Origin: a virus
Direction: 5' to 3' (one strand)
IMG/VR virus record: IMGVR_UViG_3300020074_000097
Location: 1-27,829 of that record
Length of the DNA: 27,829 nucleotides
The notes under the pieces were generated by a model. That model worked only from the letters and a program-made list of their open reading frames with translations, did not search any database and was not told the DNA's origin. Position 1 is the stretch's first letter; each line of letters begins with the position of its first letter. Positions 3,096 through 27,602 of this stretch are shown one piece after another. Made by a program: the position numbers and the translations under genes.

Positions 3096-5501
3096 TTATT
3101 CGTAGACTATTGTCCAACCTTTTGATTTTAAAAATAAAACTTTATCCAAAGCGTCTCCACTCGGAAGAGCATTAAAACGAAGATTTACTGTTACACCACC
3201 CCTGTTCACCGCAGTGTAATTTGAAAATAAATCATTGATAAGTGAATTCACCGCTTGTTGTGATAATTGATTTGAAGATAAATCAAGATATCGCAATTTA
3301 TAATTTGTAGTAAGTGATCCTGACGTATAATTAGTAAATTGATTATTATACAAAATCAGGTAGTATAAACTTGGGCATTCAGAAAAACTTGGAATAGTGC
3401 CTGATAGTAAATTATTATTTGCGTAAAAATAAGTTAAATTAGGAAGATTTTGAAATTTACTTAATGAAGTAAACTGATTATTATACAAATAAAGATATAC
3501 TAAGTTTGAAAGATTTTTAAAAGAAGGTATAGATCCACTAAATGAATTATAAGTTAAATCTACATAGTAAATATTTGGATTACTAGCAAAAGATGGAATG
3601 AGCCCAGTAAAATTATTGTAATGTAATACTAAGTAAGTTAAAGAAGGGCAAGTTAATAATGATGGTAAGGAGCCTGTCGTTCTTCCATAGGAAATGTACC
3701 ATAAGTAGTATAAATTTGGAGTAAAAGTAAAAGCATTTGGATGAATTGGGGTTGTAAGTAAATTACCAGATTGTAATAACATGTATTGAAGATTTTTACA
3801 AACTTCAAATGTTTTTTCTGGTATTACAAAAGAAGTGTCTCCGTTTGGATTACCACCTGTTAATGATGTATACCTAAGTTCAAGATAACTTAATGCTGGA
3901 TTAGTAAACTTTGGCATAGCTCCAGTCAATGGAGATGCATAAAAATACAAAGTACTCAATGATATACAATTATCAAATTTATAAGTCCCAGAACTATTAA
4001 AAATACTACCAATATTTCTGCAATAATGCCCATAAAAAGTTGTTAAGGATGTTTTATTATTTAAATCTGGACAAGGTAGTCCAGTGCTATGAATATCAAT
4101 ATATTGTATTTTATTATTTGCAGCAGATATTGAAAAAGTTGCATCAGTTAAGTAGTAATTTCCACTAAGTTGTAATGATATTAAATTTGTTAATTGTTTT
4201 ACATTTAAAAAACTTCCACTAGAAGAGCCAATAGATCTAAAATCATTATTATAAATGTAATATGTTTCACATGAATTTGTGACATTTGGAATGTATGCAT
4301 TAGGATCATCAGAATCTGGATGAAAATAAGCTCCTCCGCCTCGGTTTAAGTTTAGAGTAACTAGATTTGAAAATTTATTTGCAATTAAATTAATTGGAAT
4401 ACTACCATAAAACGTTCCACCGATTGTCAAATTTTTTAAATTACTTGGTATTTTATTAACTACATTTAAATTTAATTTTCTTTCTGATTCAGTTTCACTC
4501 AAATAAAGGGGATTTTGAACAAAATATAATTCTTGTAAATTGGGAGAAAATGTAGTTAAATTAGGTAAATTTCTTATGTTGTTGTAAGAAAAATTTAAAA
4601 TCTCTAAGTAAGAAAGTTTCGTCACAGGAAAATCAGTTATTCCTGCAGAGTTAATTGTTATTGTTTTTATGTAGTCTGGACTATAATAAAGTTGAATATA
4701 TCTTTCTCTAGAAGATGTAGATTTGAAATTAATTGTGGATGAAGTTGATCCTACATTTGTAAACTTTGAAAAATTATTTGAATTTGCAACTTCTACAATT
4801 TTCCAACTTGCAGCAGTATTGTTTAGTAATGAAGTAAGAGTGACAGTTGCAGTCAAATTTTTAAAAAATCCTGTAAAAATTAAAGGAATTCCTTTCATTG
4901 CATACAATACAACTGTTTGGCCGCCAATTGTACATGTTATCCTATCAGTCGGAAATTCTGAATCAAACTCTTTTGCTTGTGGTGTAATTGTTGTTTGTAA
5001 TCTCTTTTGTGATGCATTTGCAGCAGTACCAAACTGTAAAGATCCTCCCGATATGATTGATACTCTAGCTCCATAAGAAATTGGAACTGTAGCTCCTGTG
5101 CCTACAGAACTCCAAGCACTCACTCTTGATGTTGAAATATCAGCAATTTTAACTGTTGATGTGACAAAATCCACATAACGAAATCTAATTGCAGATCCAC
5201 TTAAAGATCCGTTTATTGTTAGATTTCCAAATAAAGATCCAAGAATAGAAGCCCGTGTGCTTAAAACACTAGTATATTTTGCTGCATCGGTGTAATATCT
5301 ATCTAATGTTTTATAAAGTGGTTGTCTTAGTCTGGAGAGACTAATCCAATCTCCTAGTGTGGCACTCGCAGCCGATCCTCTTATAACATCTAGATCTAAG
5401 GGCGGTAAATTTATTGCGTTTAATGCCTTTTTTTTATTTTCTACATCAGCGAAAGAACTTAAGACATTCAACCCAAATAATTTTGGATTTGATAAAGCCA
5501 T
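3096..5501 (-). CDS. Leucine-rich-repeat virion protein, putative receptor-binding
   Basis: An 801-residue protein whose C-terminal 500 or so residues (from about 290) are leucine-rich repeats. Units such as LSNLVYLYLYNNQFTSL and PNLTYFYANNNLLSGTIPSF follow LxxLxLxxNxLxG.IPxF, the form with an IP step best known from plant-type repeats. The end (VNLRFNALPSG, then LKSKGWTIVYE) resembles a common bacterial or phage repeat cap. Residues 1-80 form a non-repeat head with SFADVEN...ALNAI...DLDVIRG, shared in outline with the PA14 protein; residues 80-285 are beta-rich. Many repeat positions carry Tyr where Leu is usual. A NATAAATA late-promoter match lies 28 bases before the ATG. Leucine-rich repeats are protein- or glycan-binding scaffolds, so a host-recognition role is inferred. 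Confidence 0.8.
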   Translation of the reverse strand: MALSNPKLFGLNVLSSFADVENKKKALNAINLPPLDLDVIRGSAASATLGDWISLSRLRQPLYKTLDRYYTDAAKYTSVLSTRASILGSLFGNLTINGSLSGSAIRFRYVDFVTSTVKIADISTSRVSAWSSVGTGATVPISYGARVSIISGGSLQFGTAANASQKRLQTTITPQAKEFDSEFPTDRITCTIGGQTVVLYAMKGIPLIFTGFFKNLTATVTLTSLLNNTAASWKIVEVANSNNFSKFTNVGSTSSTINFKSTSSRERYIQLYYSPDYIKTITINSAGITDFPVTKLSYLEILNFSYNNIRNLPNLTTFSPNLQELYFVQNPLYLSETESERKLNLNVVNKIPSNLKNLTIGGTFYGSIPINLIANKFSNLVTLNLNRGGGAYFHPDSDDPNAYIPNVTNSCETYYIYNNDFRSIGSSSGSFLNVKQLTNLISLQLSGNYYLTDATFSISAANNKIQYIDIHSTGLPCPDLNNKTSLTTFYGHYCRNIGSIFNSSGTYKFDNCISLSTLYFYASPLTGAMPKFTNPALSYLELRYTSLTGGNPNGDTSFVIPEKTFEVCKNLQYMLLQSGNLLTTPIHPNAFTFTPNLYYLWYISYGRTTGSLPSLLTCPSLTYLVLHYNNFTGLIPSFASNPNIYYVDLTYNSFSGSIPSFKNLSNLVYLYLYNNQFTSLSKFQNLPNLTYFYANNNLLSGTIPSFSECPSLYYLILYNNQFTNYTSGSLTTNYKLRYLDLSSNQLSQQAVNSLINDLFSNYTAVNRGGVTVNLRFNALPSGDALDKVLFLKSKGWTIVYE

Positions 5502-5528
5502 GTTAACTTATACCGTTCCTATCAAGGA

Positions 5529-5536
5529 TATTTATT
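5529..5536 (-). promoter_or_regulatory. Putative T4-type late promoter (AATAAATA)
   Basis: AATAAATA on the minus strand matches the NATAAATA late-promoter core of T4-like cyanophages. It overlaps the stop codon of the upstream gene and lies 28 bases before the ATG of the leucine-rich-repeat gene. AGGA sits between promoter and start. Confidence 0.5.
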
Positions 5537-8500
5537 ATTGTTCTTTATAGTTTAGACTTATTTCAGTAAGTCCTGATCCAGCTCCATCTATTTTTCTGGC
5601 GGTGATAAATGTGGCTTCAATATTATTATTGTCTGGAGTAACTACATTTCTGTCAGGTCCAAATATTTTTTTCATGTCTATTGTTTCACTAGAATTTGAT
5701 CCAATATAAAAAGTATCTCTTACGGTGAAAGGTCTTAGAGTTTGTTGATTTTGATTATCAATCAAAGAAGAAGATAATCTGTCAACTTCTTTAAAATTTG
5801 TTGGAGCAGCCCCAAAAATGTCTGCGTTTCCGCTTGCATTTGTGATGGTACATTTATCATTTATATACCACCTTGGAGAGATTACTCGTTGAAATTGTCC
5901 TATAGTTTCTTTAACAGTTATATTATTAATCTGTGCATAATCTTTTAACTTGATAACAAGATAAAGCGGGAATGGATTAAAATTATATAATTTTGATTTG
6001 ATAAGTGTCTTTGCTGTTATTTGAACAGGACGCACTAAAACAGTGAAGTTTGATGATGGTGCATTTAGTGAACCTGAAACTTGAATGTATGAAAAAGTAC
6101 TATTTCCAGATCCAACATAACTACTAGTAACTCCAACAAATGTTTTATCAGTAATAATTGCAGTATTGCCAGCTCCGAGTAAAGCAACCTGCCCTCCGTT
6201 GAAATCTATGTTTGGAAAAGATCCTAAAACTTCTATCCAACGTCTTCCTTGAGGATCTGGAGTTGAATATCCAAAAGGATTTGGTTCATAATTATATTCA
6301 TTAACATTTTGAATTTTAGTAGGCGACAAAACTTCTAAAGTTAACTTGGAACAAATTCCACCAGATATTCCGGTAACCGATGGAATTCTATAATCTATTC
6401 CCATCAATAGTGGAGGATCTGGAGCTCCCCATGCCTCCCCAACTTCTACCCCTTCTTCATTAATAGATGCATAACTGTGTGAGTGTTGTGCAAACAGTAA
6501 AGTATCATTTGAAAGAATAGTTGTTGTTCCTGCTCCAGGAATAATAAATCCATTCAAAACACTTGGATTAGAAACATCAGGTTTTTTATCTGTAAATCCG
6601 ACTAAAAAATCTGCAAAGTGAGCATAAGAATCTCCTGCATTTGGATTTAAAAATTGAACTTCAATTTTTGAACCGGTAAATCCAAATTCTGAAGCTGCAA
6701 CTGCATTATAATTACTTAATCTGACTGGATATGGATATGTTGATCCAATGCCTATTGTAGTTGTTACACCAAGAACTCTATCATATACCAATGAATTTGG
6801 AATATTTCTATTAGATAAAGTGAATCCATAAGTTCCAGAAAATCCTTTAATTTGTGCAGTTTGAAAAGAATTACCAATACCTACAGGATTACTTACAGAA
6901 ACAATATAAGCATTATAAATTGAAGGAGCTATTAACTTTGCTCCTATATCATCACTTGTAAAGTAACTATTATTCAATGCATCTATTGAATTTGAAGATG
7001 AAAACTCAATATCAACATATCTACCGGACTCCGTTGTAGCTAATCCTGGAGTATATACGTAACCAAAATCTGGACAACCTTTACAAGTTACTACGTTTAC
7101 CTCAGTTAAACAATCTGTACTGACATTTACAGAAGTAGGTATAATTAATTTTTTATTTGTAATTGATTTTCCTTCTGAGTTTAGAATTTTTTCTTTAGGT
7201 TTAATTCCAATTAAAGATCTTACGCCACTTGAAGTGATTGTTTTACTTCCAGAACTTGTTGAATATATTGTAGAATTTCCCTCGTCCCCACCATCAATGT
7301 AATAAGAAGCACCATATTTGTATAAAAATTGTGGAGTTCGTATGTCTGCAGTATCAGTCACATTTAGTGAATACTTAAATCTAAAATAAGAATCTTGTAA
7401 ACATGGTTGAGAAAGAGAATTTTCAATAACTAATGTATGAATTACTACCCACCTTGCATCACCATTATCAGTTGGAATATATGCATAAAATCTAGCTCCA
7501 ATTGCACCATACCAACCAAATTCAATTTTATACATGGTAACTCTTTCAATATTCAAAAGATATCCAGAAGGTCCATTAGAATTTAATGGATCTCCATTAA
7601 ATTTATCTCTAGGTATATCAATTGTCCAATATTGTACGGAATCAAACGGATCTCCGCTTGATTGTTTAACTTGATCTGAAAGAGACAGTCCATTTCTTTC
7701 AAGAACACTTTTCTCTAATGGTACAGTGCTTCTTCTTACAATTGATAATTGGCCTGAAGCGACCTTAAATACAAATTGATCTGTAGGATTAGATATTCCC
7801 CATTCAATTTGAATTCCTGGTTGATTTTCTGCCGAAGATTTAAGTCCAAATGTAAATCCACTAATTCTACCAGGTTGATATCTAAAAACTCTTCTTGACT
7901 GTAAATATGCATATCTTTGGAATCCACTAGTATATCCAGGTCTTGTATTTCCAGAATTATATCCAGTAATAAAAGTAGAAATTTTTGTAAAAGTAAGTTT
8001 ATCCCCTGTTCCTGGAATTGTAATACCAACTGTAAGATCTCTCCATGTATCCGTCCATGTATCAATTTGAGCAAAAGCTATGTCTAAAGATACCTTATAG
8101 ACGACATCACCACCACTACCAACAACGGCAATTTCAGGAGAAAGAAAAAGATTTATCCAACTATCTCCATAACCTTGATTTTTGTAATAATTATACAATT
8201 CATTTCCTAATTGTATGAAATTTAAATATTTTTGAAATGTAGCTTGATCATACAAACCCAACTTCGCAAACTTTGGTCCAAATGGAAATGAATATGGGGT
8301 AGGAAAGGCTGCCAATCTAATCGCAGATTCTTGAGTTTCTTCAAATTGTTTAGCATTATATCTTTCTCCAAAAATTGCATTTTTTCTTTGATCCCAAGAT
8401 CCGAAACTATTTCCACTATTGAAAGAATAAAATTCAAATTCATCAGAATCTAGTCCATAAGAAGAAACATTAGAAAATAAACCTAATTGAACTTCTGCAC

Positions 8501-17651: not shown

Positions 17652-20429
17652 TCAATAGTAGTAGCCTCCACCACTAGGCGGGGATGGTGGCGGCGGTGGC
17701 GGTGGCGGAGGCGGTGGCGGTGGTGGCGGCGGAGGTGGAGGTGAAGGAGCCGGTGAAGGAGATGGAGATGGAGTTGGAGATGGTGAAGGGGATGGAGTTG
17801 GAGATGGAGTTGGAGATGGTGAAGGAGATGGAGATGGAGATGGTGAAGAGGATGAGGTGGGAGTTGATGTTGATGATGTCGGGGTTGGTGTTACTGATGA
17901 TCCACTACTTCCAGAAGATCCACTAGAAGATCCACTATTTCCAGACGATCCACTAGAAGATCCACTACTTCCAGACGATCCACTATTTCCATAAACTATA
18001 TCAGATAAAGGAAATGGAGATTGATTAAGTATTTGAACTGTTTTAGATGGTTCACCAGGACAATCAACAACATTTATAATACTCGTTAATTCAGACACCT
18101 GTATTACCGGTGCAGTAATATATTGTGGTACGTACTGAACAATAGGATATAACAAGGCGCCCTGGCCAGTGTTCGTAGTTATTTCTAAATCTGGAATATC
18201 TGGGAATTGATTTTTGCACGAATTAGGAGAGTTAACTCCAATAATGTTTCCAAATTCTGTTAAAATAGGACTATATGAGCAACTGCCCCAACTAATTTTA
18301 TCACCACTGGTGTATCCAGTTCCAGGTTTTATTACAACAATATCTGTTACTATTCCAACAGGATTGGTAGAGATACCTCCTCCACCGCCAGTGGTTCCGA
18401 TTCCAGTGCCACTAGTGGTTCCGATTCCAGTGCCACCACCGGTAGTTCCGATTCCAACATCAGGGGGTGTTATTCCTGGATTTAAATCAGTAGGACAATA
18501 TCCAGATCCTTTCTCTTCAATGTAAATAGATTTAATAGATCCTTTATCATCTATTTGTGATTTAGCTATAGCTCCTTTTCCAAAATTACTTGCATCAACA
18601 ATATCAATCTTTGGTTCTTTTGTATAACCTTTTCCAATATCTAAAACCTGAATTGTTAATACTGATCCGTCTGAGGGATTTATTACTGCTTTTGCTTTGG
18701 CTCCAATTCCGTCCCCACTAATTACAATTTCTGGAGGTATACATTTATACCACTTTGTTCCTGGGGGTACGGCACCCCATATGTCGTCTTGTGTTTTAGG
18801 ATTTACAATTGTCTGACGACAGTCTTTAAATATAGTTTCTTGTCCTCCATACATGGATAATAATCCTGACCATTGATCTATAGATTCACCAGCACCTCCC
18901 AATAAATCAAAATTATTTAATGTCTGAGCCCATTTATCTGAAGATGGCAGTTTTACACCATTAAATGGATCCCAAAAAGGTTTTCCTTTACACTCTAGAC
19001 CATCACACTGTAAAAACCCTAATAGTTGATTCAACATGCTGAAAGCACCAGTGATATAACCAGTAATTTGGGATATTCCTCCAGTTAACCAATCAATTCC
19101 AGATAAAACAGAATCTAAAGCCTCAGTCAAAAAATCTGCAGTTTTTCCAATTAAAGTTGCAAGGGTTTCTTCAGCTGCACAGACTGGAATGTTTGGTGAT
19201 TTTCCAATCAATCCCTCTAGAAGAGACATCATGAAATCTAGTAATGGCCCAAAAAGTTTTTCAAAAACACAAAAAATAATGTTCATTATCTGTTTTGCAG
19301 CTTCAGATAATTGTAACCATAGAGGTTCTGGAATTGTAACTGCAAAAATTTTAAATAAACATCCTATGAGTTTGGTAATGTTATCTCTTATACCATTTAT
19401 AATGAATTTAAAAATAGAAATTAATAAACGAGCAACTCTTTGAATATTAGTTTTTACATTTACAACTACATTTCGTATTGGATCAATAAATCCAAATGCT
19501 GTTTTTTGTAGTTTGTTTATAAATGCAATAAAGCTTTGTAAAGTTGCTTGCATATCTGCAAGAAAGTTATTTTCACACCCATTATCACCAGAATATGGAC
19601 CAGCTTCATCTGTGGAAAATACTGATAAAAACGCATTGACTGCTTGAGTATCTGCAAAAAGTTTATCGTAAGCTAAATCTGGCTTTGCAAAAGAAGATCC
19701 TGCAACAGATGCATCAGGAAGTCCACTTAAAGGATTAACATATCCACTTGGTAAAGCAGAATAAAAAGACGAACCAGGGTCAGAAATACCGAGATTTGAG
19801 TTTGAATTAAGAACATAATTTGATCCAGGACTTAAATTGATACTATCCGATACACCAAAAAGAGGTTTTGAATTTTCTTGGATAGACATTGCTGGCTTAT
19901 CAGAACCTTCATTAGTAACTTCTGGTGGTTTTTGCACTTCACCCGGCTTCTGTGATTTAATTCTTGTTGGAGTGGCAGATAAACTTCCCTGCATCCCAGT
20001 AAAGGGTTTGAATTGGGAACTCTTTTCTTTCGCAACTAAATCAGGAGTAATATCGTTTTTTACAGATACATTTCTATAAAAACACGAAACTACAACGGGT
20101 TGTTGAGCTTCATCTCCATCCATGAAAAATCCCAGAACAGATTCTCCACCAACAAGATTTGGAGTTTTTCCAAATCCACCTTGTCCTGGGGCTCCGTCTG
20201 CAGCAGAGGTTAAAATGTGAGCCCAAGGAAGATCCTCATCTGGCAAAACATTACCATTAAACGTGTGATATCCGATAATTCTTACTTTGCATCTATATGC
20301 CCAACTACCTTCAAGATCTAATTTTGATTTATCATTTCTCCATACTTTAGGATCAGCTACTTGACCAACCCACCATACGAAACCATCTTTTCCTGCAAAA
20401 CTAGATTTTAGTAAAGATTCGTCTATCAT
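17652..20429 (-). CDS. 5: Baseplate hub protein, gp5-like OB fold, no lysozyme domain
   Basis: 925 residues. Residues 15-120 match the gp5/VgrG OB domain: FVWWVGQVADP, RCKVRIIGYHTFNG, EDLPWAHILTSA, then VLGFFMDGDEAQQPVVVSCF. In T4 this domain is followed by a lysozyme and a beta-helix. Here residues 285-460 are strongly hydrophobic helices (for example VARLLISIFKFIINGI and IIFCVFEKLFGPLLDFMMSL), which may interact with membrane. Residues 565-720 hold GxGY repeats (DIGKGYTKEP, EKGSGYCP, KPGTGYTSGD) and a GIGTTGGG run. The last ~110 residues are GSS repeats, then (S/T)P repeats, 19 consecutive Pro and GGGYYY. The ATG overlaps the preceding stop by one base (TGATG). It should bind the gp27-like protein. 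OB assignment is confident; the roles of the helical and Pro-rich parts are unknown. Confidence 0.85.
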   Translation of the reverse strand: MIDESLLKSSFAGKDGFVWWVGQVADPKVWRNDKSKLDLEGSWAYRCKVRIIGYHTFNGNVLPDEDLPWAHILTSAADGAPGQGGFGKTPNLVGGESVLGFFMDGDEAQQPVVVSCFYRNVSVKNDITPDLVAKEKSSQFKPFTGMQGSLSATPTRIKSQKPGEVQKPPEVTNEGSDKPAMSIQENSKPLFGVSDSINLSPGSNYVLNSNSNLGISDPGSSFYSALPSGYVNPLSGLPDASVAGSSFAKPDLAYDKLFADTQAVNAFLSVFSTDEAGPYSGDNGCENNFLADMQATLQSFIAFINKLQKTAFGFIDPIRNVVVNVKTNIQRVARLLISIFKFIINGIRDNITKLIGCLFKIFAVTIPEPLWLQLSEAAKQIMNIIFCVFEKLFGPLLDFMMSLLEGLIGKSPNIPVCAAEETLATLIGKTADFLTEALDSVLSGIDWLTGGISQITGYITGAFSMLNQLLGFLQCDGLECKGKPFWDPFNGVKLPSSDKWAQTLNNFDLLGGAGESIDQWSGLLSMYGGQETIFKDCRQTIVNPKTQDDIWGAVPPGTKWYKCIPPEIVISGDGIGAKAKAVINPSDGSVLTIQVLDIGKGYTKEPKIDIVDASNFGKGAIAKSQIDDKGSIKSIYIEEKGSGYCPTDLNPGITPPDVGIGTTGGGTGIGTTSGTGIGTTGGGGGISTNPVGIVTDIVVIKPGTGYTSGDKISWGSCSYSPILTEFGNIIGVNSPNSCKNQFPDIPDLEITTNTGQGALLYPIVQYVPQYITAPVIQVSELTSIINVVDCPGEPSKTVQILNQSPFPLSDIVYGNSGSSGSSGSSSGSSGNSGSSSGSSGSSGSSVTPTPTSSTSTPTSSSSPSPSPSPSPSPTPSPTPSPSPSPTPSPSPSPAPSPPPPPPPPPPPPPPPPPPPSPPSGGGYYY
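17673..17990. repeat. Low-complexity repeats encoding GSS, SP and poly-Pro tail
   Basis: A tract inside the 3' end of the gp5-like gene. On the + strand it reads GGTGGCGGC-type repeats (poly-Pro codons), then GGAGATGGA-type repeats (Ser-Pro), then nine-base units such as GATCCACTA (Gly-Ser-Ser). The GC-rich part stands out sharply from the AT-rich surroundings and is likely to vary in length by slippage. Confidence 0.85.
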
Positions 20430-21934: not shown

Positions 21935-23971
21935 TTATGAAGAAGATAACTGAGTTAATAATATAGTTTTGAATAAGCTATTTAATACCTGAGTTTCGGA
22001 TGGACCTGGCATTAAAACTGTTTGTTGACCAGAACTGGGTGTGGAAATAATTCTAGGAGTTTGTTTTCCACTACCTTGAACGACTGGAAGAACTACAGTC
22101 CTGTTTGTTTGTAAGTTATATGCAGGATATTGTTGCATTTGTTGCATTTGTTGAGAATTTGCCGTTTGTTGTGGCATTGATTGGACTTGCGTTGAGGGTG
22201 CAACTGAAGAAACTCTTCCCATACCTTGTGCAAATTGTAATATAGCTGCAGTTCCTGCTCCAGTTACTCTTTGACCGACAACATCTTTCATAGATCCACC
22301 TGCGATTCTAACTGCATTACTATCACCAAGGATTTGTGCGCCTGAATATTTCTTTTTGATTCTATCTGCTTCACTCATTTCTAAATGTAATGGATCATCT
22401 GTCCTATATTTTCCTTTCTCTACAGTTGCACCCATAGAAGCGGCGGCTTCTTGAACTGCTTTAGATGCGTCTGCAAATTTGCCACTTTCATTCGGAGGAA
22501 CTACGACAACATTGTATCCCTTTTGTTGTAATTCTTTAATAGACTTCATTACATTTGCTTTTGCAGTTTGAGGACTACCATAGTCATTTGTTCCCGCGGC
22601 TAAAACTACAGTTGGTTTGCCTGTTTGGCCCATCACTCCGCTTTGAGAGGAAACTCTTGATCTTTCAGATTGTTCTTTTGCTTTTTCTGCAGTCAATGCA
22701 GCTCCAATTTTTTGTCCAAGACCAGCAGAACTTGGATTTATTGGTTGACCTCCTCTATATACCTCAAAATGTAAGTGAGTATTTCGTCCATCAGGATATA
22801 GATTAGCAATTTTTTGACCACCGTATACAGTATCTCCAACTTTAACTGAAGGTGTAGTATGATAGTATCTAGTTTTAAATCCTCCGCCATGATCAATAGT
22901 AACAAAACCATTGTAACCATTATGAACAGCTTCTGTAACTTTTCCTGTTTTATGAGCCGCTACTACTGCGTTTAGTGCTCCAGTATGGTGAGTCATATCA
23001 AGACCAGCATGTTTTCTTTTTCCACCATCTCTTGGAGCACCAAACTGTTGATTTGCCGCTTCTCCTGCTTTTCCTCCAGGTAAAGGAAAAAAAGTATCTC
23101 CACTAATTGGGCCTTCGTACCCTTCACCAGCTGGAGTTTCTTTTATCGGAGGATATTGTGTAGGCTCATTATATGGATTTTCGCCCTGTCCAACATCTTG
23201 TCTACCAGAACCATAACTAGATCCAAAATTGGATTGTTCAAATTTTGCAACCACATTTTCAAATTTATTTAAAGTTGATGGCCAAGTGTTTTGTGGATTT
23301 GACCTTGCTAATGCAGCTTGTTTTTGTTCCCTTTCTTCTTGTTTAAGTTTTGACTGACCTACAATTTTTTCTCCTGTTTCATATGCACGATCTCCAAGAA
23401 ATCCTCCCGCAAGGCCGCCGGCCATACTTCCAAGGACAAAACCTAATCCAGGGATAGGAATTAATGCTTGTCCAATTGCACCACCAATTAAACTTCCAGC
23501 AAGGTTACCACCAGCACCTGCAGCTGCTTTACCAACTCCTTCTCCTTCAGCAAGTCCTGTAGCAAAGTCTAATCCAGCAAAAACAGCATTAGCAATTCCT
23601 AATGCTCTCAACCCACCAAATCTAACATTCTGTCCTTTTGTTATAGGCATACCTGCTTTTGATTTTGGTGAGGGTTTTTTTCCACCAAAGAAATTACCAA
23701 TAATAGAAGCAGCATCTAACGCACCGCTTGTCAACCCACTCAACAAGTTTCCAGATCTCCCAAAAGTATTAATGGGATTAAGGCCTTGTATTTTTCTAAT
23801 TTTCTTTTGATCAAACTTGATTGATTTTAATGTTTGTGTCTCAGTTGCCATAGATGACAAAAATTGAGAAAAAGATGCCTGAGTATTCTGCATCACTCCT
23901 GTGGAGCGATTAATCCTAACAATATTATTAGCCGCTCTTGCTAATGGGAATACGCTATCTTGAATTGCCAT
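21935..23971 (-). CDS. Tail protein: Gly-zipper, M23 peptidase, permuted SGNH-like domain
   Basis: 678 residues. Residues 145-195 are a Gly-zipper hydrophobic stretch (GNLAGSLIGGAIGQALIPIP, then GFVLGSMAGGLAGGFLG) able to insert in membranes. Residues 305-415 are an M23 (LytM-like) peptidase with all expected residues: H321 and D325 (HAGLD), H371 (YYH), H399 and H401 (HLHFE). Residues 450-585 carry SGNH-hydrolase motifs in unusual order: GTND (460-463), DPLH (526-529), GDSN (549-552), then a block-II-like TGAGTAAIL. A Gln-rich segment and a hydrophobic C-terminus follow. M23 enzymes cut peptidoglycan cross-links, so it likely opens the wall during injection. Membrane segment and location near the tape measure suggest it sits in the tail lumen or tip. 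The start overlaps the previous stop (TAATG). Confidence 0.8.
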   Translation of the reverse strand: MAIQDSVFPLARAANNIVRINRSTGVMQNTQASFSQFLSSMATETQTLKSIKFDQKKIRKIQGLNPINTFGRSGNLLSGLTSGALDAASIIGNFFGGKKPSPKSKAGMPITKGQNVRFGGLRALGIANAVFAGLDFATGLAEGEGVGKAAAGAGGNLAGSLIGGAIGQALIPIPGLGFVLGSMAGGLAGGFLGDRAYETGEKIVGQSKLKQEEREQKQAALARSNPQNTWPSTLNKFENVVAKFEQSNFGSSYGSGRQDVGQGENPYNEPTQYPPIKETPAGEGYEGPISGDTFFPLPGGKAGEAANQQFGAPRDGGKRKHAGLDMTHHTGALNAVVAAHKTGKVTEAVHNGYNGFVTIDHGGGFKTRYYHTTPSVKVGDTVYGGQKIANLYPDGRNTHLHFEVYRGGQPINPSSAGLGQKIGAALTAEKAKEQSERSRVSSQSGVMGQTGKPTVVLAAGTNDYGSPQTAKANVMKSIKELQQKGYNVVVVPPNESGKFADASKAVQEAAASMGATVEKGKYRTDDPLHLEMSEADRIKKKYSGAQILGDSNAVRIAGGSMKDVVGQRVTGAGTAAILQFAQGMGRVSSVAPSTQVQSMPQQTANSQQMQQMQQYPAYNLQTNRTVVLPVVQGSGKQTPRIISTPSSGQQTVLMPGPSETQVLNSLFKTILLTQLSSS

Positions 23972-25737
23972 TATCCGTCAACGATATTGTATACTATTCT
24001 TGAGTATAATGTAAGGAAATTGTCTTCATTTGTAGAAGTTATGAATTGAACTGTTCCACCCTGAATTGACCCCGAATCTAAAGTTTGAGTGCCACCTTGA
24101 TTCATAGGTTGAGACATATTCACCGGATCTAACATTTGAACAGAGTTATTTTGAATTGTAGTAGGTGGTTGGGAAACTGTTTGTGCAAGTTGTTGTGTGT
24201 TTGTTGCAGTTGCAGAAGCTGGTGCAACTGCAGATGGTTTTGGTGGTTGAGCTGTTGCAATTGGTGTATTTCCACCTCCTCTGATAGCCTTTAATTCTGC
24301 GATAGCCGTTGCATATGTTTTATGTGCTTTATTCCTATTTTTATATTGATCTTGATAAGTTAAATCTGCAGTGCCGCCTAGTTTTGCAGCATTTATGGTT
24401 CCTTGTGGCAATCCTCTCCATGTGGGGGCAAGTTTCTGTAAAAATTGTTCTTCTGTTATTTGTCCTCCCAAAAACTTATCTAATGAATGTGATTTTCTGA
24501 GTTCGTTTAAAGTTATAGCATCTTGAACTTCTGGTGTAAATTTTGTATTTGCATTAAATCCAGCCCTTTCCGCTCTTTCTAAAAGATATTGAGGCATTTG
24601 TTGATATCTTCCAATTGCCCCTTTAGCATTTTTGGCTAAGTATCCAATAGTTTGTTCTGTAGCTTTTCCTTTAGTTTTTCCAGCACTCTGATTAAAACTA
24701 TCATAACCTTCCGGACCTTGCTCTACAGAAGCAATAAGATCTAAAACTCCTTTTTCTCCAGTTGTAGTAACTCCAGAAGCACCTGTAGCACCTGTAGCAC
24801 CTGTAGCACCTGTAGCACCAGCAGATCCTTGAGAACCTGTAGCACCTGACGATCTAGATGTAGATTCACTAGTAGAAGATGAAGATTGTTGTCTTCCTGT
24901 AGTTAAAGTTTCTATTGCACGTTCAAATTTAGAGAGAATGGCATTAAATCTATCCAAATATGAACCAGTTAATCCCCCAGCATCTTGCGTTGGTTCAGCT
25001 TCTACAGCACCAGGACCGGCTAATGCACTCGTGACCATTGCAGTCCCAGCACCCAATGCACCTGCTCCAGCTAACATCATGCCTGGTCTGCGTCTCATCA
25101 TTCTCATGAGACCCGAAGGCGCACTTCTCTTCAATCCTCCACCAGGTACATCAACATCAATATTAAGACCAGGGCCCCCTCCAGCAGATGCAGTGGGCAG
25201 ATTGGATAATTGGTCTACAATTCTTACAATTTGTCTTCTGATAATCTGTGCGACTTTAAAAGTTTCGTTAAAAACTTCTTGCAATGCCTTGAGATTTTCT
25301 CCTAATCTTGAAACATTTTTTCTATCTGCAAAAAACTGTAGATAACCTATAGCTTTATTGTATAAACTTAAGAATGAATTTAGAAGTCTATTTGGAAGAG
25401 ATGCATCTATATTTGCAATTTTAGCCCTATAGTTAGAAGACAAATCTGCAATTCTATCATTTACAATTTGATTAACTGTTTGATTTATAGTTTGTACTTT
25501 ACTTTCTATATTGTTTAGGATATTACTTGATAATGTCTTGATAATAGATCCCAAATCTGGAGGTCTTGGTGCTACTGCAGACGCTCCACGTTGAAATCCT
25601 ACAATTTTATTAGCTGCTGCACTTAAAACAGAAGATCCCAGAGGAGCTCCACCAGAGATAAAATTCTGTGCCTTTTCTGGTGTGACTCTAGACTCTGGAG
25701 CAATAACTCCTGGATTAAGTGGGGAACTAATTGCCAC
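23971..25737 (-). CDS. Putative tape-measure protein (gp29-like position) with muramidase domain
   Basis: I choose the GTG at 25737 (VAISSPLNPGVIAPES, 588 residues): AGGCGG lies 6 bases before it. The frame extends to a TTG at 25776 within the previous gene, without a good site. Residues 65-185 are long helices (ESKVQTINQTVNQIVNDRIA, then RLGENLKALQEVFNETF). An Arg cluster precedes a hydrophobic stretch at about 217-245. A collagen-like GAT repeat (about 298-322) links to a lambda-lysozyme-like muramidase at about 327-485 (LDLIASVEQGPEGYDSFN with likely catalytic Glu near 339, GAIGRYQQMP, FTPEVQDAITLNEL). Length is close to T4 gp29 (590), and it follows the gp26/gp51-like pair, where a tape measure is expected. 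The neighbour at 21935-23971 could instead share or hold that role. Confidence 0.65.
   Translation of the reverse strand: MAISSPLNPGVIAPESRVTPEKAQNFISGGAPLGSSVLSAAANKIVGFQRGASAVAPRPPDLGSIIKTLSSNILNNIESKVQTINQTVNQIVNDRIADLSSNYRAKIANIDASLPNRLLNSFLSLYNKAIGYLQFFADRKNVSRLGENLKALQEVFNETFKVAQIIRRQIVRIVDQLSNLPTASAGGGPGLNIDVDVPGGGLKRSAPSGLMRMMRRRPGMMLAGAGALGAGTAMVTSALAGPGAVEAEPTQDAGGLTGSYLDRFNAILSKFERAIETLTTGRQQSSSSTSESTSRSSGATGSQGSAGATGATGATGATGASGVTTTGEKGVLDLIASVEQGPEGYDSFNQSAGKTKGKATEQTIGYLAKNAKGAIGRYQQMPQYLLERAERAGFNANTKFTPEVQDAITLNELRKSHSLDKFLGGQITEEQFLQKLAPTWRGLPQGTINAAKLGGTADLTYQDQYKNRNKAHKTYATAIAELKAIRGGGNTPIATAQPPKPSAVAPASATATNTQQLAQTVSQPPTTIQNNSVQMLDPVNMSQPMNQGGTQTLDSGSIQGGTVQFITSTNEDNFLTLYSRIVYNIVDG
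24781..24816. repeat. Nine-base tandem repeat, collagen-like linker
   Basis: Four perfect copies of ACCTGTAGC (+ strand) encode the GAT triplets of the linker between the helical part and the muramidase of the putative tape-measure protein. Imperfect copies follow. Gain or loss of one unit keeps the frame and changes linker length by three residues. Confidence 0.85.
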
Positions 25738-25912
25738 GATTTGCCGCCTGTTGTGTCTTTGAATTTTCTTCCTCAATATGTTGTTTCAATAGGGCAAGAT
25801 AAATATCTCTCTCCCAAGGCATCAGGTTTTCAATCTCAGTCAAAGAGTATTTATGGAACTGCATGAGAGCGAAGTTAATCCGATAATATGACTCAAGATC
25901 AATATGAGCCAT
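25727..25912 (-). CDS. Small gp51-like tail-assembly partner, probable -1 frameshift extension
   Basis: 61 residues if started at the ATG at 25912: INFALMQFHKYSLTEIENLM then PWERDIYLALLKQHIEEENS. The 'F.Y....I..L.PWE...Y...L' pattern is typical of the short helical domains of tail-assembly chaperones, which often include a DUF-type 'MPWWER' motif. It lies in the -1 frame of the gp26-like gene, two bases after its stop, and has no ribosome binding site at usual distance; GGAGGG is 24 bases away. I therefore think it is mainly made as a C-terminal extension of the gp26-like protein (305 residues in all). It overlaps the next gene's GTG start. Calling it gp51-like rests on gene order (T4 26-51); sequence identity to T4 gp51 (249 residues) was not tested. 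Confidence 0.7.
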   Translation of the reverse strand: MAHIDLESYYRINFALMQFHKYSLTEIENLMPWERDIYLALLKQHIEEENSKTQQAANRGN

Positions 25913-25942
25913 AATTAACCGAAAAAACTTGTTAGACCCTCC
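25887..25942 (-). promoter_or_regulatory. Candidate programmed -1 ribosomal frameshift signal
   Basis: Reading the minus strand: GGAGGG (25942-25937), nine bases, slippery T TTT TTC (25927-25921) in the correct phase of the gp26-like frame (AGT TTT TTC GGT TAA), seven bases, then a 9-bp hairpin with one G-U pair and a 9-base loop (25913-25905 with 25895-25887). A -1 slip reads CGG TTA ATT ATG GCT and enters the small downstream frame. Layout equals the SD-slippery-hairpin arrangement of E. coli dnaX. Confidence 0.7.
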
Positions 25943-26666: not shown

Positions 26667-26674
26667 TATTTAGA
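26667..26674 (-). promoter_or_regulatory. Possible late promoter (TCTAAATA, one mismatch)
   Basis: TCTAAATA differs from the T4 core TATAAATA at one base and lies 23 bases before the gp26-like ATG, the same spacing seen for the better matches in this window. It overlaps the stop of the upstream gene. Confidence 0.35.
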
Positions 26675-27602
26675 CTAGTTCTGACGCTGCTGCAGGGCTC
26701 AATCCTGTTAAGTTTGATAAGTTTCCTATTGGGCTTCCTGATATGATTTGTGGACTTGCAAGAAGAAGTTGTTCTCCAGACTTTGTTAAGGCTTCATCGT
26801 AATATGGAACTCCTGTTCCTTCATGTTTCAGGACTACATATCTATCATAAGAAAAACTTACGGATGTTTTTGTGATTGAACTCCCTTCATAAGATAGTTG
26901 CATAGAAGTTAAATTAGTTGGAAAAGTATTGATAAATTTATAGGTTAACATTGGAGGAGTTTCTAAAACTTTTCCAGATCCATCAACACGAGTATTTCTT
27001 TCAAATTTTGTTACGGTAATTGTTCTTTTATAAGTTAGTGGGTATCTAAGTTTAAATAAATTATCATCATCAAAACTTGCACCATCGCTTGTACTTCCTT
27101 TAAAATTACCTGTTTTTGCACGTCCATTATCGGTGTAAAGTGGATTAATAAAATTCATCCACTCTTCAAATAAACGTATGATACCATAATCAGCATCAAC
27201 AAAGAAATCTAAACTAACTTCTGGAAAAGTTCTCATATATGGAAATTTTTCAATTAATCCCTGACGACTTCCCGTTTCATCATAAGTTGAAAAGGTATTT
27301 CCTGGTAAGGTAGTACTATAACACATAAAGTCATAACGAAGAGCTGATAAATCGGATCCTAACACACCACATGAAACTAACCAAGAATTGAGATCTTTAT
27401 CAGCACTCCCAGTTCCTACTGAATCACCTAAAAATAAAGATGCTTTGAATTGACTAGTTTGAGATAAACTTCCAAAAAGTTCTTGAATACTAGGCAAAGA
27501 ACCTCTATCATCTGAGGTATTCCTAGGAGTAGTCATCCTAATGTAAATAGGATCAACTCTGTAAGGATTATTTGGATAATCTTCTCTGAATGGCTCAGCC
27601 AT
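26670..27602 (-). CDS. Baseplate tail-tube cap/initiator, gp48/gp54 family
   Basis: 310 residues. T4 gp48 and gp54 both share the fold of the tail-tube protein gp19 and cap the baseplate so that the tube can polymerise. Visible features of that family: a middle part with YMRTFPEVSLDFFVDADYGI, then RLFEEWMNFINP, KLRYPLTYKRTITVTKFER, and the late TYKFINTFPTNLTSMQLSYE followed by TKTSVSFSYDRYVV. The N-terminal NPYRVDPIYIRMTTPRNTSD is the expected leading extension. I cannot decide between gp48 and gp54, so no symbol is given. It is the first gene of the leftward block, divergent from the gp4-like gene with 28 bases between them, and precedes the gp26-like gene. No strong ribosome binding site is visible before the ATG. 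Confidence 0.75.
   Translation of the reverse strand: MAEPFREDYPNNPYRVDPIYIRMTTPRNTSDDRGSLPSIQELFGSLSQTSQFKASLFLGDSVGTGSADKDLNSWLVSCGVLGSDLSALRYDFMCYSTTLPGNTFSTYDETGSRQGLIEKFPYMRTFPEVSLDFFVDADYGIIRLFEEWMNFINPLYTDNGRAKTGNFKGSTSDGASFDDDNLFKLRYPLTYKRTITVTKFERNTRVDGSGKVLETPPMLTYKFINTFPTNLTSMQLSYEGSSITKTSVSFSYDRYVVLKHEGTGVPYYDEALTKSGEQLLLASPQIISGSPIGNLSNLTGLSPAAASELV

Follow-up and report, generated by a model that had tools for sequence, protein, structure and literature searches.

Tail assembly chaperones of T4-like phages are the subject of a study by Vladimirov, Gautam and Davidson (Virology 2022, 566:9-15), in which T4 reportedly uses genes 26 and 51. Its abstract reportedly describes frameshifting as appearing conserved in several T4-like groups. 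In phage lambda, the proteins G and GT provide the precedent for a chaperone pair with a short and a long member (Levin, Hendrix and Casjens 1993; Xu, Hendrix and Duda 2004), and the lambda precedent for tape-measure binding and tail-tube recruitment has been reviewed (PMC5009743). That 2016 recoding review describes the frameshift as conserved in long-tailed phages "except T4". Citing Vladimirov et al. 2022, a passage of PMC12846349 mentions polyT slippery sequences in the TAC-N genes of T4-like phages, and a passage of PMC10885494 mentions separate short and fused long genes in some of these phages. It was through such citations that prior art surfaced, a search by name for a gp26/gp51 frameshift in cyanophages having found none in the literature covered. 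As far as the citing passages convey, gp26/gp51 frameshift chaperones had already been published (Vladimirov et al. 2022), so the phage described here is a further member, correctly identified and well supported. The choice of SD-like codons, the turnover of the hairpin with covariation and the loss of start codons are added here, and may or may not be contained in that paper.

Results

The window, by which we mean the whole stretch of 27,829 nucleotides that was analysed, is a 27.8-kb IMG/VR fragment from an uncultivated marine phage that is T4-like and of the cyanophage (Kyanoviridae) type; its baseplate-hub and tail genes lie mostly on the minus strand. The first-pass annotation had claimed a complete -1 frameshift cassette at the end of its gp26-like gene, comprising an SD element, a slippery heptamer in phase, two spacers, a hairpin and an open -1 frame. 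Table 1 shows that the minus strand has every one of them, with a 7-nt spacer (GGTTAAT) between heptamer and stem. In-phase X XXY YYZ heptamers number 80 across 17 CDS of the window, and that of gp26 alone (1 of the 80) both falls within 60 nt of the end of its gene and has an open -1 frame of more than 40 codons.

Table 1. Features at the end of the gp26-like gene and in adjoining genes of the window.
Feature	Position	Strand	Evidence
Tail-tube family protein, upstream of gp26	26670..27602	-	PF23849 Phage_TTP_2, E 9e-12; PHROG 45 tail tube, E 4e-34
gp26-like gene, TAC-N short form, 242 aa	25915..26643	-	PF12322 T4_baseplate and PHROG 150 matches
SD-like GGAGGG, codons (CT)G GAG GG(T), 9 nt 5' of heptamer	25937..25942	-	sequence
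Slippery heptamer T TTT TTC, X XXY YYZ phase	25921..25927	-	context ...ACA AGT TTT TTC GGT TAA
0-frame stop TAA of gp26	25915..25917	-	sequence
Hairpin 5' arm TATGGCTCA, 9 bp, includes small-frame ATG 25912-25910	25905..25913	-	fold z -3.04
Hairpin 3' arm TGAGTCATA, 9 bp, loop 9 nt	25887..25895	-	fold z -3.04
-1 frame extension, TAC-C / gp51-like, RLI + 61 aa, to TAG 25729-25727	25727..25921	-	PHROG 634 and PHROG 150
ORF of 601 aa from TTG, candidate tape measure / hub lysozyme	23971..25776	-	position only

The gp26-like protein belongs to the TAC-N family, matching PF12322 at E 1.6e-67 (score 227.9, cutoff 24.5 bits) and PHROG 150 'baseplate hub' at E 8e-74. The extension belongs to TAC-C, its match to PHROG 634 (gp51, 'baseplate hub assembly catalyst') having E 2.2e-27. 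A second match, to the far C-terminal end of PHROG 150 (E 1.5e-5), gave a first hint that the two frames may be one protein in some phages. Reading in the -1 frame gives ...FF-RLI-MAHIDLESYY..., in which the small 61-codon ORF itself spans 25912..25727 (-), and the fusion comes to the 305 residues predicted at first pass (241 + 3 + 61).

At the level of sequence, the elements are shown to be present and conserved, the hairpin covaries among relatives, and T4 gp51 is a natural in-frame fusion; a programmed -1 ribosomal frameshift very probably makes two forms of the tail assembly chaperone, gp26 and gp26-51. Most ribosomes would translate gp26 and stop at the TAA at 25917. A fraction would pause at T TTT TTC, with GGAGGG pairing with 16S rRNA behind and the hairpin ahead; the tRNA-Phe pair would slip from UUU UUC to UUU UUU, and the -1 frame would then yield the 305-aa fusion gp26-51 (TAC-NC). 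By analogy with lambda gpG and gpGT, gp26 would coat the tape measure and tail-tube subunits would be recruited by the fusion through its C-terminal domain, and by the same analogy both would be expected to be absent from the virion. We infer that slippage occurs and how efficient it is, and likewise, from lambda, that both products act as chaperones.

To place the cassette among relatives, we used 80 viral contigs with a gp26 protein 60-84% identical; codon counts are for 78 distinct loci. T TTT TTC stands two codons before the stop, with the small frame -1 and open through the site, in 80 of 80 contigs (the contig end falls within the small frame in L034 and L037), and the slippery heptamer occurs in 81 of 81 loci. 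Conservation of heptamer and -1 phase, which the first-pass annotation had proposed to check by alignment, thus holds throughout these contigs, and the heptamer is also kept in most of the distant T4-like phages. The Phe-Phe codons at the site are TTT TTC in 78/78 distinct loci, compared with 2/77 at other FF dipeptides of the same genes. Nine bases upstream of the heptamer, Glu-Gly is encoded by GAG GGN in 65 loci, by GAA GGG in 13 and by GAA GGH in none of the 78, so at least an SD-like tetramer has always been kept; in the gene body, by contrast with this preference for GAG, Glu is GAA in 72%. Two isolates depart from the pattern at the SD-like site, S-CAM9 having GAA GGA, which contains AAGGA, and B23 having ATG GGC, a weak case. 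The conservation of heptamer, -1 phase and SD-like codons is far beyond chance.

Alternatively, the heptamer could be incidental and the small ORF a gene in its own right (gp51), whose translation begins at the ATG at 25912 or by stop-start reinitiation after gp26. The sampled cyanophage database records do annotate separate genes, and an ATG lies within six small-frame codons after the heptamer in 54/78 loci; however, the remaining 24 (about a third) have none, 21 lack ATG, GTG and TTG alike in these codons, and one locus (L076) is without any of the three in fourteen. In the window, the ATG is buried in the hairpin stem with no SD at normal spacing, in agreement with the first-pass remark that the small gene lacks a normally spaced ribosome binding site. 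Two Ackermannvirus-like Vibrio phages that combine a TAATG overlap with no heptamer fit a separate gene, but this explanation leaves unaccounted for the 78/78 TTT TTC, the SD-like codons, the hairpin covariation and the fused T4 gp51, and we consider it very improbable. At loci where an ATG follows the heptamer, which are most, a share of the small protein may be made by independent initiation or by reinitiation, in addition to frameshifting.

We also considered transcriptional slippage, in which RNA polymerase would stutter on T6, leaving some mRNAs off by at least one base and the frames fused in RNA. Runs such as this T6 (T8 in HTVC008M, AAGTTTTTTTTAA) can slip, yet every one of the 78 cyanophage-type loci has exactly six T and then a C. 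Moreover, a polymerase slip would have no need of ribosomal stimulators such as the conserved SD-like codons and the covarying hairpin, both suitably spaced, and this origin of the fusion is extremely unlikely.

Strong folding was confined to the position after the heptamer: the first 50 nt 3' of it had a mean folding z against shuffles of -2.18 across all 78 loci, unselected, with 87% of loci below -1, while the mean in gene-body windows was -0.35. The 9-bp stem of the window retains at least 7 of 9 pairs in 23/78 loci and at least 8 in 21/78, and was rejected as a universal element on the latter count. Most other loci have a different hairpin at the same place, giving at least two architectures overall. 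A hairpin follows the heptamer in most loci, though usually not the exact stem of the first-pass annotation.

Class A, the long stem of the window, has 89% of its alignment cells paired, and one pair is exchanged between G.U and U.G in 6 sequences, coupled with Ala/Ser swaps (MAH..LES to MSH..LEA). In class B the stem is 5 bp long (GGTCC-ATAT-GGACC), and 4 of its 5 pairs show two-sided, compensatory changes. Double-changed cells numbered 6 in class A versus 2.4 in shuffles, and 21 in class B versus 5.6, the sequences being related and class membership partly chosen by folding, which favours the class counts. The hairpin may have been turned over repeatedly while heptamer and SD-like codons stayed fixed, with RNA pairing driving coupled changes in the C-domain (MAH..LES to MSH..LEA; VHMD, IHMD, VHMN), a reading that could go either way. 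If true, the protein sequence at the join would be set in part by the need to maintain a single frameshift ratio, and having separate genes would have freed T4 to lose the whole cassette.

The first-pass annotation had extended the frameshift to the 26-51 gene pair of T4 itself, where it does not apply. As a natural control, genes 26 and 51 of T4 are divergent and separate, and gp51 is the product of an ordinary full-length gene. Gene 26 ends in GAG TTC TTT GAG TTA CTA TAA, with Phe codons TTC TTT, no heptamer and a closed -1 frame. T4 gp51 matches PF12322 (E 3.9e-52) with a full gp26-like domain running straight into the cyanophage-extension domain, and PHROG 634 at E 1.2e-23; the TAC-C profile matches its residues 208-246, the C-terminus. 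In profile searches of a six-sequence set, gp51 matched the fused cyanophage profile at E 2.9e-12, TAC-N alone at 1.1e-5 and TAC-C alone at 5.3e-9, and the fused-profile match was continuous across the join. Because T4 gp51 is a gp26-like domain plus C-domain continuous through the join, a fused protein at the same join exists in nature. The T4-type arrangement of two full-length genes was not found in the window, whose 61-aa ORF has no gp26-like domain. The textbook phage T4 thus seems to be exceptional in having swapped frameshifting for two genes.

The heptamer extends broadly among more distant T4-like phages. TTTTTTC is found in P-SSM2, S-SM2, S-SCSM2R, S-CAM9, B23, L101, L102 and L113, as well as in the Straboviridae LPCS28, AS-zj and VH7D and in Menderavirus Moby. 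The form TTTTTTT is found in the pelagiphage HTVC008M, Melnitz, Acinetobacter SH-Ab 15599 and L111. Exceptions among the T4-like phages examined were T4, K476 and SD25. LPCS28, AS-zj and VH7D each have a -1 frame that, though unannotated, belongs by profile match to the gp51 family (E 3.5e-10, 1.7e-11 and 3.5e-21, respectively). 

These unannotated chaperone extensions belong to L085 (Cronobacter phage LPCS28, at 4705-4875), L088 (Aeromonas phage AS-zj, MF448340, region 4699-6735) and L090 (Vibrio phage VH7D, region 4825-6968). In the latter two regions the next ORF is likewise unannotated, with 622 aa in AS-zj (PHROG 11300) and 657 aa in VH7D (PHROG 15654 with similarity to tape-measure PHROG 58). 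In the Ackermannvirus-like Vibrio phages K476 (L087, ~4721) and SD25 (L089, ~4742), the heptamer is absent and the -1 frame is open, the junctions reading CTT TTT GCG TAATG and GTT TTT CGC TAATG. In these two, a different slip could operate (cf. the GTTTTT motif, PMC12846349), or else stop-start reinitiation.

That the pair lies directly before the tape measure, another first-pass claim, is supported in relatives, where tape-measure-like genes lie close by, but not in the window, where the 601-aa ORF matches no tape-measure family. In HTVC008M (E 8e-12), VH7D (1e-8) and S-SM2 (2e-5 and 8e-8), tape-measure matches fall just downstream of the chaperone, in the gene next or next but one. The 601-aa ORF most likely starts at GTG 25737, overlapping the TAC-C end, rather than at TTG 25776, and contains a collagen-like GATGATGATG stretch. 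Beyond it lies a second tape-measure/hub-lysin candidate, a 678-aa protein (21935-23971, -) in which a hydrophobic segment rich in glycine is combined with an M23 peptidase domain (PF01551, E 1e-17). Comparison of the 601-aa and 678-aa ORFs with T4 gp29, HTVC008M, Melnitz, lambda H and P2 T by phmmer/HMM returned nothing convincing.

Elsewhere in the window, a gp5-like hub/lysozyme protein (17652-20429, -; PHROG 1922) ends in a long Ser/Pro low-complexity tail (SPSPSP...PPPPPP). An 801-aa protein (3096-5501, -) appears leucine-rich-repeat-like by eye, with repeats such as NLTYFYANNNLLSGTIPSF, which is unusual in a phage tail region; it is possibly a receptor-binding or adhesion protein.

Discussion

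The conserved cassette and the fused gp51 of T4 together point to gp26 and gp26-51 as a chaperone pair of the lambda G/GT type, produced by -1 frameshifting. For the phage in the window, this was the central first-pass proposal, and conservation of heptamer, phase, SD-like codons, hairpin and open frame supports it. As far as citing papers describe it, the system of Vladimirov et al. 2022 concerns the same phage group and the same idea of short and long chaperones. The identity of the T4 genes as 26 and 51, as reported for that study, agrees with our profile matches to T4 gp51. Many cyanophage genomes annotate gp26 as 'baseplate hub subunit' and gp51 as 'hub assembly catalyst'. The evidence points to a single chaperone in two lengths, so a joined CDS should be entered in the records. 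In AS-zj, LPCS28 and VH7D, the unannotated -1 frame holds the 'missing' gp51.

Comparison with known systems

The lambda heptamer is G GGA AAG, different from the T TTT TTC of the window, and the lambda tail is non-contractile, a difference from the T4-like system. The E. coli dnaX cassette has the same order as the window, with an SD-like element, slippery heptamer and hairpin, but differs in its heptamer (A AAA AAG), in being a host gene and in that the shift yields a shorter product. Neither lambda G nor P2 E showed homology to TAC-N by profile search (E 0.29 and 0.26, six-sequence set), and a sequence search of solved structures gave no match. When the predicted gp26 fold (pLDDT 82.5) was compared with the PDB, the top hit was 2ob9, the tail assembly chaperone of HK97, although not significantly (E 0.53, prob 0.33). 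The likeness of gp26/gp26-51 to the G/GT pair would therefore be one of working by analogy, no homology indicating common descent having been detected. 

Phage P2 has a contractile tail, and its E/E+E' pair (annotated in NC_001895) is made by a -1 frameshift whose site, T TTT TTG, immediately precedes the tape measure gene T; P2 E has 91 aa and is without profile-level similarity to gp26. The TAC of Pakpunavirus/Vandenendeviridae belongs to another family and has another motif than the window phage, but it resembles the window in having a T-rich sequence, GTTTTT, at the TAC-N end and a -1 frame open in all genomes (PMC12846349).
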